Positions 14,495 through 18,219 of a stretch of 64,000 bases of DNA are shown here, piece after piece. A program made the position numbers and the translations under genes. The notes under the pieces were generated by a model. It had not been told where the DNA came from. It made no database searches and worked only from the letters and a program-made list of their open reading frames with translations. Position 1 is the stretch's first letter; each line of letters starts with the position of its first letter. Source of the DNA: Capillimicrobium parvum (GTDB lineage Bacteria; Actinomycetota; Thermoleophilia; Solirubrobacterales; Solirubrobacteraceae); NCBI RefSeq assembly GCF_021172045.1, contig NZ_CP087164.1, forward strand, positions 3,968,001 through 4,032,000. The letters run 5' to 3'.

Positions 14495-15621
14495 GCGCCG
14501 AACGGCCCGCGTGGGCGCAGTGGGGTGGCGGCGGCGGGCCGGCCACCGCCTTCACGGTGGGCGTCGAGGAGGAATGCATGCTCGTCGCGCCCGAGTCGTG
14601 GAACCTCGCCGGGGCGATCGACGAGGTGCTGCCGCGCCTGCCCGCCGACGTAGCGGCCCACGCCAGCGCGGAGACGCACGCGGCGGCGCTGGAGCTCGCC
14701 ACCGGCGTGCACGGGACCGTCGACGCGGCGATCGAGGAGCTCGCCGACCTCCGGGCCGCGCTGCGCGAGACGACGGAGTCGTGCGGCCTCGCCGCGGCCG
14801 CGGCGGGCACGCACCCGTTCGCCGTGTGGCGCGACGTGTCGGTGTCGACGGGCGCGCGCCAGGCGCTCGTGTACGGCTCGATGCGCGAGCTCGCGCGCCG
14901 CGAGCCGACGTTCGCACTGCACGTCCACGTCGGCGTACCGGACCCCGAGGATGCCGTCCGGGTGGCCAACCGCCTGCGCGTGCATCTGCCGGTCCTGCTG
15001 GCGCTGTCGGCGAACTCGCCGTTCTGGCAGGGCCGCGACACGGGCCTGGCCTCGGCCCGCACGCCGCTGTTCCAGGCGTTCCCGCGCGTCGGGATCCCGC
15101 GCGCGTTCGACAGCTACGAGGATTGGCTGCAGACCGTCGGCCTACTCATCCGCTGCGAGGCGTTCCCGGAGCCGACGTTCCTGTGGTGGGACGTGCGGCT
15201 GCAGCCGGCGCTGGGGACCGTCGAGGTGCGGATCATGGACACGCAGACGACCGTCGAGGACAGCGGCGCGCTCGTCGCGCTCGTGCAGTGCCTCGCGCGG
15301 CTGGAGGCGCTCGAGGGCTTCGCCGACCCGCTCGCGGTCCGCAGCGACGAGGTCCTCGCCGAGAACCGCTTCATCGCCGCCCGCGACGGCACGACGGCCG
15401 CGCTCATCGACCCCTCCGTCGAGATGCGCATCCCGCTCGGCGAGGTGGTGGAGCGGCTGCTCGCCGCGTGCCGGCCGCACGCCGAGGACCTGGGCTGCGC
15501 GGACTGGATGCACGGCGTCGAGCGCCTGCTCGCGGATCCCGGCGCCGAGCGCCAGCTCGCCCTGGGGCGCGAGCCGGACCGCCTTCCCGGGCTCATGGCC
15601 GCCCTGGCGGGCGTGTACTAG
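14479..15621 (+). CDS. Carboxylate-amine ligase, glutamate-cysteine ligase family 2 (YbdK-like)
   Basis: A 380-residue GCS2-fold ligase: FTVGVEEECMLVAPESWNLA carries metal-binding glutamates, then ETHAAALELATGVH, ALHVHVGVPD, LLALSANSPFW and the C-terminal ALGTVEVRIMD. The family makes gamma-glutamyl-type amides, but the YbdK branch rarely has a proven substrate. A GGAGG sequence precedes the ATG within the end of the ATP-grasp gene, so both ligases are translated together. With the upstream C26 amidase this looks like a small pathway for an amide-linked metabolite. The stop at 15619 is followed within a few bases by the inserted element. Confidence 0.92.
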   Translation: MGASLSAERPAWAQWGGGGGPATAFTVGVEEECMLVAPESWNLAGAIDEVLPRLPADVAAHASAETHAAALELATGVHGTVDAAIEELADLRAALRETTESCGLAAAAAGTHPFAVWRDVSVSTGARQALVYGSMRELARREPTFALHVHVGVPDPEDAVRVANRLRVHLPVLLALSANSPFWQGRDTGLASARTPLFQAFPRVGIPRAFDSYEDWLQTVGLLIRCEAFPEPTFLWWDVRLQPALGTVEVRIMDTQTTVEDSGALVALVQCLARLEALEGFADPLAVRSDEVLAENRFIAARDGTTAALIDPSVEMRIPLGEVVERLLAACRPHAEDLGCADWMHGVERLLADPGAERQLALGREPDRLPGLMAALAGVY

Positions 15622-15694
15622 TTCTGATATGTCCGTCGTGTTGTCAAGTGGGCGTGCGTGATCGCCGTCCGCTTGGCGGCCGTCGGGCGGGGTT

Positions 15695-15887
15695 GGTCGG
15701 TGGGCCGGGACGCCGGGCTCGGTGTCGGCGTTGCCAGTCTGAGATGCGAGGGTTGGGTACCTCAGGGCCCGGTTTCGTGCTGCCGGCTTTTGCTGTCTAG
15801 GAACGAGCGTGCCGCCCACCGAGGGGGTGCTCATAGAACGTTCGCGCGTGCCGGCCGCTGATGGCCCGGCGCCCCGGCCCACCGACC
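15695..15887 (-). ncRNA. Candidate bridge RNA / structured noncoding RNA of the IS110 element
   Basis: Two 24-base arms (15695-15718 and 15864-15887) are inverted copies with one mismatch. Read as minus-strand RNA, the mismatch becomes a G-U pair, so all 24 positions can pair; read as plus-strand RNA it would be A-C. The arms enclose 145 nt that can form smaller hairpins (for example GAGG...CCTC and CTGAG...CTCAG with a 17-base loop). The 193-nt unit begins 20 bases after the transposase stop. IS110-family elements are known to encode a bridge RNA in a noncoding end that guides recombination; in the IS1111 branch it lies downstream of the transposase. The assignment is inference from position and fold. 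Confidence 0.45.
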
Positions 15888-15907
15888 GTGATGTTCTCAG
15901 CCGCGGG

Positions 15908-16993
15908 TCAGTCGGCGGTGGCGGCGGCCCAGAGGAACCCGGCGAGCTGCCGTGCGCAAGCGACCACCACGATGTTGTGGGGCTTGCCGCGGGCCTTCAT
16001 CGTGCGATGGACCTTATAGAGGCGCTGCTGGGCGCGGTTGCTGATCGCGAGGATGTGGTCGGGCTGTCCGGCCTGGCGGTTGGCCAGTGTCGCGCCCAGC
16101 CGTGGTTCGCGGCCGTAGTGCCAGGCCGACTCGACCAACAACCTGCGGGCGAGCGTCGAGCCGGTCTTGGTGATCGAGCCCTGGCGCGAGGACTCACCGG
16201 ACTGGTTGAGCGTCGGTGTCAGTCCCAGCCACGCGCCCAGCGCGGCGGCGCGCTCAAAGCGGCGCCAGTCGCCGCCGAGCTCGAGGTGGATCGACAGGGC
16301 GCTCAGCGTGTCGATGCCTCTGAACGCGCGCAGCCGGGCGACGGTCGGCCACCACCGCTCATCCGTCGCAAGCTGGGCGAGTTGCAGTGCGACCGCCTGC
16401 TTGCGCGCCGTCAACCCGTCGACCGCCGCGATGAGATCGGCGAAGACCAGGGCGCTGGCCGGCTCGCCGAACTGCTGACGCGACAACCAGCGACGGTGCT
16501 CGGTGGTCCAGGTCGTCGGCTTGGGATAGACCCGCCCGTGGCGCAACAGCATCTTGCTCACGCGATGGCGGGCGTCCATCAGATCGCGCCGGCACGCATC
16601 GTGGGCGCGGGTCATCTCTCTGGCGGCCTCGATCTCCGGCGGCGGCACCACGACCCGCGTCAGCGACCCGGCCAGCAACAACCGGGCCAGAAGCTCGGCG
16701 TCCTTGCGGTCGCTCTTGACTCTGTCAGACGATCCCCGCGGGGTCTTCCCGGGCGCGATCACCTGCATCGCGATCCCCGCTGTCGTCGCCGCTCGGTAGA
16801 GCCCGAAACCGGTCGACCCGGCCTCATAGCACGCGCGTGCCGGACCGGGCTGCTGGAGCATCCACGCGATCGGTGCCTCCAACCCAGGGCCGAACTTCGC
16901 GCGTCGCAGCTCGCCGGTCATCGTGTCGATCGCTGCCGCGTGCGTCGAGCGGGCATGGACATCGAGACCGACCCACGTCATCGTTCCGGTCAT
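15908..16993 (-). CDS. IS110-family transposase (DEDD recombinase)
   Basis: A 361-residue transposase. The N-terminal RuvC-like DEDD domain is visible as WVGLDVHARSTHAAAID (first Asp), CYEAGSTGFGLYRAATTAG (Glu) and SDRKDAELLARLLLAG (paired Asp). The C-terminal Transposase_20 domain has LRAFRGIDTLSALSIHLELG and the conserved serine region SGESSRQGSITKTGSTLARR. The length and both domains look complete, so the element may be active. A GGAGG seven bases before the ATG at 16993 is a good ribosome site; ATG 16981 is an alternative. Confidence 0.95.
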   Translation of the reverse strand: MTGTMTWVGLDVHARSTHAAAIDTMTGELRRAKFGPGLEAPIAWMLQQPGPARACYEAGSTGFGLYRAATTAGIAMQVIAPGKTPRGSSDRVKSDRKDAELLARLLLAGSLTRVVVPPPEIEAAREMTRAHDACRRDLMDARHRVSKMLLRHGRVYPKPTTWTTEHRRWLSRQQFGEPASALVFADLIAAVDGLTARKQAVALQLAQLATDERWWPTVARLRAFRGIDTLSALSIHLELGGDWRRFERAAALGAWLGLTPTLNQSGESSRQGSITKTGSTLARRLLVESAWHYGREPRLGATLANRQAGQPDHILAISNRAQQRLYKVHRTMKARGKPHNIVVVACARQLAGFLWAAATAD

Positions 16994-17120
16994 GGCCGGA
17001 CCTCCTCACTCATCTGGGGTCAGCCAGAGGCCATCCCTCTGGTCAGACAAACCCCCGCGAGGAGCGTCCGGCCATCAGCCTCGGCAGTCAACCCCTTCCG
17101 GGCCGACCGCCTCATAGGGT

Positions 17121-17708
17121 CTAGTATTCGAGCGTTCGCACCACCCGGGCGGGCGCGCCGGCCGCGATCGAATACGGCGGCAGGTCGCTCGTCACCACGC
17201 TGTTGGCGCCGACGACGCAGCGCTCGCCGATCGTCACGCCGCTCGTGACCACGACGTGGGCGCCGAGCCACACGTTGTCGCCCAGGCGGGTCGGGCCCTT
17301 CGACGTGAACCCCTGCCACGGCACCGGCTTGCCGGGGTCGTCGAAGCGGTGGTTGGCGTCGGTGACGAAGCAGCCGTTGGCGAGCATGCAGTGCTCGCCG
17401 ATCTCCACGAGCTCGTGGGCGGCGACCATCACGCCGAGGTTCAGGAAGCTGCCGGCACCGATGCGGATGCGACCGGGAGCCGGCGCGGTGAGCCAGACGC
17501 CGGGCTCGAGGAGGGCGTTCTCCCCCAGCTCCAGGCGGCCCTCGTCGAACATCTCGAGCACGTTGCCGTGCACCGGCCAGCGGATGAACGCGCCGCGGCG
17601 CAGGGCGTGCAGGTGGATGCGCCCGCGGTTCCACGGCAGCGTGCTGCGCTCGTACCAGCGCCACTTCTGCGCCCAGATCCGGGCGCGGGCGGCCAGGCGG
17701 TGGTCCAT
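17121..17708 (-). CDS. Left-handed beta-helix acyltransferase (hexapeptide family)
   Basis: A 195-residue acetyl/acyltransferase with hexapeptide-repeat turns: ELGENALLEPGVWLTA, IRIGAGSFLNLGVMVAAHE, EIGEHCMLANGCFVTDANHR, RLGDNVWLGAHVVVTSGVTI, and GERCVVGANSVVTSDLPPYS before AAGAPARVVR, the classic end of maltose/galactoside acetyltransferase relatives. The likely catalytic histidine is in DANHRF. It transfers an acyl group from acyl-CoA to a sugar or similar hydroxyl. ATG 17708 is preferred; GTG 17726 is possible. The insertion element lies directly past its stop codon. The 241 bp upstream (17709-17949) hold no gene I can support. Confidence 0.88.
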   Translation of the reverse strand: MDHRLAARARIWAQKWRWYERSTLPWNRGRIHLHALRRGAFIRWPVHGNVLEMFDEGRLELGENALLEPGVWLTAPAPGRIRIGAGSFLNLGVMVAAHELVEIGEHCMLANGCFVTDANHRFDDPGKPVPWQGFTSKGPTRLGDNVWLGAHVVVTSGVTIGERCVVGANSVVTSDLPPYSIAAGAPARVVRTLEY

Positions 17709-17949
17709 CGCGTGATCTTCGCGCACGGAGCGCGCCGAAGCGGTGCTCAGGACGATCGCGAGGATGCGGCGACGAGTCGCCGACGCTCTCAGTCGCGCGC
17801 GAACGCCGGACGCAGCAGCGCTCGCGCGGCAACGACGCGACGCGCGCGGTCGCCTTCGGCACGGCGGGCGCCGGTCCCGACCGGGACGGAGGCGAGGCGG
17901 CGCCGAGCGACGATGGCGGCCGGCACCGAGCGGCTGGCGCGCGGCACCG

Positions 17950-18219
17950 TCAGAACTGGCGCCCGGGGATCCGCACCAGCGTCGACATCCCGGCCCACGG
18001 CGGGCGCAGCTGAACGCGCAGCGACTGCTCGGCGGTCAGGTCCACCCGCCAGTCCAGGCCGCAGCGGTGACAGTGGCAGTCGACGGTGGCCGAGTCGCTG
18101 CTGAGCTGCACCGTCGCGTGCGTCGGCTCGCACAGGCAGCCCGAGCAGGCGAAGCTGGCGTGGACGAGCTCGTCGGGATCGTCGGGGCGGAAGCGGGCGA
18201 TCTCGCTCGCGACCTGCAT
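17950..18219 (-). CDS. Small cysteine-cluster (zinc-ribbon-like) protein, unknown function
   Basis: An 89-residue protein with two cysteine knuckles, ACSGCLC and DCHCHRCGLDW, about 24 residues apart, which probably bind zinc. The rest is short beta-rich sequence, and I do not recognise a family. The ATG at 18219 overlaps the TGA of the dehydrogenase gene (TGATG), so the two are co-translated and probably act together. No signal peptide is present, so it is predicted to be cytoplasmic. Confidence 0.72.
   Translation of the reverse strand: MQVASEIARFRPDDPDELVHASFACSGCLCEPTHATVQLSSDSATVDCHCHRCGLDWRVDLTAEQSLRVQLRPPWAGMSTLVRIPGRQF

Follow-up and report, generated by a model that had tools for sequence, protein, structure and literature searches.

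The segment of 193 nt that lies downstream of an IS110-family transposase gene in Capillimicrobium parvum is, on the comparison of related sequences, almost certainly the bridge RNA (seekRNA) of an element of about 1.5 kb with an IS1111-type layout. Across many actinobacteria 40 insertions were compared, and at nearly all of them a few bases of the RNA match the adjoining DNA; the identity is assigned because such a match between guide and insertion flank is what a programmable RNA-guided recombinase requires. The initial annotation of the window (the whole stretch of 64,000 nt that was analysed) had proposed a bridge RNA here, and that reading is supported, as the guide bases covary both with the insertion sites and with the donor end. 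This kind of element is already known; the member is new. Relatives were searched across the family and the order, giving close ones with 63–85% amino acid identity and distant ones of the same order with 41–50%; the named records belong to the Solirubrobacterales, including Svornostia abyssi. The viral contigs searched held no relative of the element. The features are collected in Table 1.

Table 1. Predicted features of the element and its bridge RNA, in window coordinates.
Feature	Position	Strand	Basis
IS110-family element	15624..17120	(-)	second copy shares 15621-17124; flanks of relatives diverge at the borders; stops restored if CTAG is target
IS110-family RNA-guided recombinase, 361 aa	15908..16993	(-)	NF033542, PF01548, PF02371; DEDD motifs, GLTPTLNQSG
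Bridge RNA, 193 nt with approximate ends	15695..15887	(-)	fold z -4.75, covariation, guides
Closing stem, 5' arm	15864..15887	(-)	inverted repeat; helices 2-3, 8 pairs changed on both sides
Closing stem, 3' arm	15695..15718	(-)	inverted repeat; covariation
Inner stem-loop of target-binding domain, stem TGRGC/GCYCG	15804..15833	(-)	helices 5 and 6 of covariation model
Putative right target guide GTT-CT, complementary to AG-AAC on the top strand of the target	15835..15839	(-)	52.7/57 vs shuffled 20; hold-out 29/30
Putative left target guide CTAG, same sense as target YTAG	15797..15800	(-)	Y of guide covaries with Y of target
Putative right donor guide region GGGCCCT, complementary to left end (AG-ACCC), mismatch/bulge here	15764..15770	(-)	covariation with left end, 18 pairs
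Putative left donor guide CATCTCAG, 7/8 identical to right end CATATCAG	15739..15746	(-)	8/8 in many relatives of 41-50% identity
Predicted left target half and core, CTAG; holds stop of acetyltransferase gene 17121-17726(-)	17121..17124	(-)	homologue ends ..IEY*
Predicted right target AAC	15621..15623	(-)	matched by guide GTT; AAC in second copy too

The transposase matches NF033542 with an E value of 6e-61 (206.5 bits; cut-off 140) and scores above the cut-offs of PF01548 and PF02371 (the Transposase_20 C-terminal domain). It contains the motifs GLDVH, YEAG, SDRKDAE, and NQSGES, and its sequence similarity to the IS621 and ISCro4 protein chains (structures 8wt6 and 9t56) is weak. The genome of 5.95 Mb holds two copies of the element. 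The second (G000:C1:63591-65093) is identical to window 15621-17124 at 1498 of 1504 positions while its flanks are unrelated, and because the two copies share this whole interval the hairpin lies inside the element. The flanks of relatives lose their similarity directly past CATATCAG at one border and ahead of YTAG at the opposite border, so that both the second copy and the borders of relatives enclose the hairpin, bearing out the earlier view that the segment is part of the element. The left end starts with ACCCTATG at 17120, and the right end consists of CATATC followed by the core AG (15631-15624).

The hairpin was originally described as two arms of 24 nt, 145 nt apart, with one mismatch, and this description is accurate: the arms are complementary at 23 of 24 positions and form the top-scoring inverted repeat within 15000-18000. 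The nearer arm lies 20 nt from the transposase stop. The transposase-strand (minus-strand) RNA, whose folding had been suggested as a check, reaches -131.2 kcal/mol (z of -4.75), with none of 200 shuffles equally low, compared with a z of -2.07 for the opposite strand, where 6 of 200 shuffles were as low. On the transposase strand the lone mismatch becomes a G-U pair, which had been taken as a sign of the transcribed strand; this argument holds, because the same pair is G-C in six, G-U in three, and A-U in one of ten relatives. A search of the whole window against Rfam gave zero family matches. These data bear on the idea that the repeat acts at the level of DNA, as a recombinase binding site or a chance palindrome, with no RNA being made. 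Inverted repeats are frequent in IS elements, and long complementary arms arise more easily in a window of 73% G+C; however, the G-U pair persists in a single strand orientation, the fold z is strand-dependent, and the arms covary in relatives, so that we consider this idea scarcely credible.

Every intact close copy conserves the region 3' of the transposase stop, and an alignment of ten close relatives gave a consensus fold consisting of a long closing stem and two domains. Changes on both sides of a pair, in at least one sequence, were seen at 15 of 54 pairs (6.2 in shuffles); eight of these 15 belong to the closing stem, the arms of which are thus kept by compensatory changes. The covariation score was 0.187 against 0.076 in shuffles, a value reached by none of 500, and paired cells made up 95.2%, compared with 34–42% in slid-structure controls. 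On four of five structure measures the real alignment exceeded every one of the 500 shuffles, and on the fifth it exceeded 496. Within the target domain of most relatives, CTATGAG occurs together with GCTCG and CTATGGG with GCCCG. The absence of a conserved structure in relatives had been named as the outcome that would speak against a bridge RNA; what relatives have is a conserved, covarying fold.

The strongest evidence for guide function comes from the right side of the insertion. In the RNA, the conserved CTATGRG is preceded on its 5' side by three bases whose reverse complement makes up the first three positions to the right of the insertion, as in the guide/target pairs GTT/AAC (window), CAA/TTG (G119), GCT/AGC (G016), ACG/CGT (G062), and GAA/TTC (G114). 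In 19 distinct guides and 30 insertions, taken from assemblies of varied quality, positions RT+1, +2, and +3 matched in 15.7, 18, and 19 of 19 cases, compared with 7.0, 5.9, and 7.1 after shuffling. The joint match was 52.7 of 57, against a mean of 20 and a maximum of 39.7 in 100,000 shuffles; from position +5 onward this set gave no guide-target signal. Ten plasmid elements from Pseudonocardia, Gordonia, Arthrobacter, Rhodococcus, and Microbacterium were held out and read after the rule had been fixed, and here 29 of 30 bases matched, which only 1 of 100,000 shuffles equalled. In this hold-out set position +4 matched in 9 of 10 elements, and four or five contiguous pairs were present in 8 of 10. 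A limit of this evidence is that only three to five target bases follow the guide, so that the specificity open to testing is short. A transcription terminator or an mRNA-stabilising structure behind the transposase gene might account for a very stable hairpin 20 nt past the stop codon, but the 3' arm is not followed by a T run, and such a structure would neither encode the reverse complement of insertion flanks nor keep two loops with conserved unpaired sequence; it is refuted as the sole function and is in our judgement very improbable.

The initial annotation had also pointed to the heptamer CTCATAG, said to occur in the interior of the hairpin at 15831 and in the flank just past the element at 17111. 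The interior occurrence in fact starts at 15830, and the second, near 17111, lies inside the left end, since the copies are shared up to 17124. As a candidate target guide the heptamer was rejected on comparison with relatives, whose left ends read CTATGGC or CTATGTA against CTATGRG in the RNA.

On the left side the putative guide has the same sense as the target. The Y of the RNA guide and the Y of the target agreed in 19.5 of 20 cases against 15.3 expected (P about 0.001), and left-flank bases beyond YTAG gave a weak guide signal at the first base alone (P of 0.016). Because CTAG is palindromic, its strand is assigned from the Y position and the surrounding sequence. In G114, seven copies whose RNA is identical are flanked on the right by TTC (six) or CTC (one) and on the left by YTAG with either C or T, and because the base varies among copies with the same RNA, at least the first base of YTAG is target. 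Taking CTAG as the start of the element instead was rejected; it would leave this C/T variation unexplained, fuse bioF with bioD (L056), and delete the stops of an MFS gene and a trigger-factor gene (L088). With YTAG assigned to the target, the bioF-like protein ends in ..PSYY* ahead of the bioD-like start, the MFS (..AIG*) and trigger-factor (..DTKES*) genes end in a tail-to-tail overlap, and further stops are restored, including that of a thiolase (..ERLS*) and others. Likewise, the window acetyltransferase ends in ..LEY* and its homologue in G023 in ..IEY*. Given the restored stops and the Y variation in G114, the target is best read as YTAG-NNN(N), with AG as the core, CATATC-AG as the right end of the element, and YTAG supplied by the host. 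The empty sites are predicted to read GAATACTAGAACTAGTAC and CACCCCTAGAACGCG; no intact empty site was found in the same genus, and in G024 the acetyltransferase gene and a glutamate-cysteine-ligase-like gene lie about 2.5 kb apart on one contig.

CTAG is depleted in the 64-kb window, with 12 occurrences where trinucleotide frequencies predict 49 and base composition predicts 152, and 6 of the 12 end a coding-like frame in their TAG. Among the insertions, 14 of 30 have a coding-like frame ending at YTAG, the protein being recognised by Pfam in eight; set against the 6 of 12 window CTAGs, these 14 of 30 show no obvious preference for stop codons beyond the distribution of CTAG itself. Aiming at YTAG would nevertheless often bring the element to the ends of genes.

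The second RNA domain appears to carry the donor guides. Its 5' part has a segment complementary to AG-AC(C/G)N; its 3' part contains CATATCAG in most distant relatives and in many plasmid elements, and CATC(A)TCAG in close relatives, of which the window has the form CATCTCAG. The predicted donor junction is CATATC-AG-ACCCTATG. At LE3 the opposing RNA base matches in 17 of 18 distinct pairs (9.3 in shuffles, P about 1e-4), and at LE4 in 12 (5.7 in shuffles, P about 0.002), P values that shared descent may have inflated. In the window copy the right donor guide departs from the perfect sequence GGGTCT by reading GGGCCCT, and one base of the left donor guide is mismatched. Such imperfect guides are compatible with a different working RNA, namely a short seekRNA of 70–100 nt comprising the target loop only, with the second loop and closing stem as parts of a precursor and the donor ends recognised by the protein through subterminal repeats. 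In ISEc11, ISPa11, and ISKpn4, forms of 70–100 nt do outnumber the long form (Siddiquee et al., PMC11187229). Here, however, changes in the second loop track those of the left end across lineages, the loop carries the right-end sequence in distant relatives, and the closing stem is maintained by compensatory changes, all of which make the short form unlikely.

For the full-length bridge RNA we propose the following mechanism. The RNA would probably be co-transcribed with the transposase gene and then trimmed, with the 24-bp stem closing its two loops. By analogy with IS621 and IS1111 members, the recombinase would bind this RNA and hold target and donor DNA together, and strand exchange at the AG core would then insert the circular element into YTAG-NNN(N).

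The core of IS621, a member of the IS110 group, is CT, compared with AG here. As regards overall design, the present element shares with IS621 a DEDD recombinase and an RNA with separate target and donor loops, in each of which a core of two bases is common to both guides (PMC11208160). In IS621, however, the RNA lies upstream of the gene and the bottom-strand guide comes first, whereas here it lies downstream with the top-strand complement first. In both respects the element is like the IS1111 members ISEc11, ISPa11, and ISKpn4, in which the RNA is downstream of the transposase gene and its top-strand complement precedes the bottom-strand one (PMC11187229). The motif GL-P----SG of IS1111 is found here as GLTPTLNQSG, and counting CTAG with the element, in the way the 4 bp of ISEc11 were treated, gives a left extension of 7 nt. 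On the other hand, the transposase has 361 aa compared with 330–350 in IS1111, the target consists of YTAG and three to five variable bases, and the 24-bp stem encloses both loops, unlike in IS1111 members. The subterminal inverted repeats are 4–7 bp, against 7–17 bp in IS1111 (PMC11187229): 4 bp in the window (TATG/CATA) and 7 bp in G139 (TATGGCC) and G114 (ATATGGA). Because the window copy falls below that range, the element is filed as IS110 family with an IS1111-type layout and not as a proven IS1111 member. Another actinobacterial element of the IS110 family, IS900 of Mycobacterium avium subsp. paratuberculosis, rarely disrupts genes (PMC8141618); its target motif was derived separately, and a guide RNA was outside that study.

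The YTAG target seems, tentatively, to be unreported; within the library of papers searched, no report tied an IS110 transposase to a CTAG target site. We regard as evenly balanced the proposal that these elements form a widespread actinobacterial lineage in which one half of the target guide is locked on YTAG and only the three to five bases beyond it are reprogrammed. These G+C-rich genomes contain few YTAG words, many of which form stop codons, so that locking, if true, would amount to RNA-guided landing at gene ends that spares genes; a target as short as YTAG with three to five further bases, often at stops, suggests spread without gene breakage. The matches show, independently and from genome data alone, that guide and target correspond in an actinobacterial lineage of bridge-RNA recombinases that has been little studied. 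This lineage offers many natural guide-target pairs, and its natural reprogramming events are material for testing programmable recombinases.

Several further observations concern individual copies. A TTGAC(A) box lies about 10–11 nt before CATATCAG in 26 elements (window 15624-15650 and relatives); it may represent the -35 half of a promoter created when the two ends join, though no good -10 was seen at the usual distance from it. Three copies in G114 (L073, L075, and L078) have a 3-bp insertion of CTA in the right end relative to four otherwise near-identical copies. At one locus in another genome (L058, G088:C7) the transposase is 85% identical and the RNA region is absent, with only a piece resembling the 3' arm (CGGCCCACCGACC) after the stop. 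The second C. parvum copy (L004, 63591-65093) lies between two flagellar rod/hook-like genes, judged by eye to be of the flgF/flgG type, and in its RNA the apical loop of the target domain is one base shorter. The same genome also has remnants of a diverged relative of the element, a piece with RNA and right end (L005, 1912479-1912738) and a left-end piece (L007, 1918849-1918940), about 6 kb apart in an order impossible for an intact element. A 53-nt orphan copy at 2525430-2525482 (L006) is 96% identical and comprises the 5' arm and the start of the target domain.
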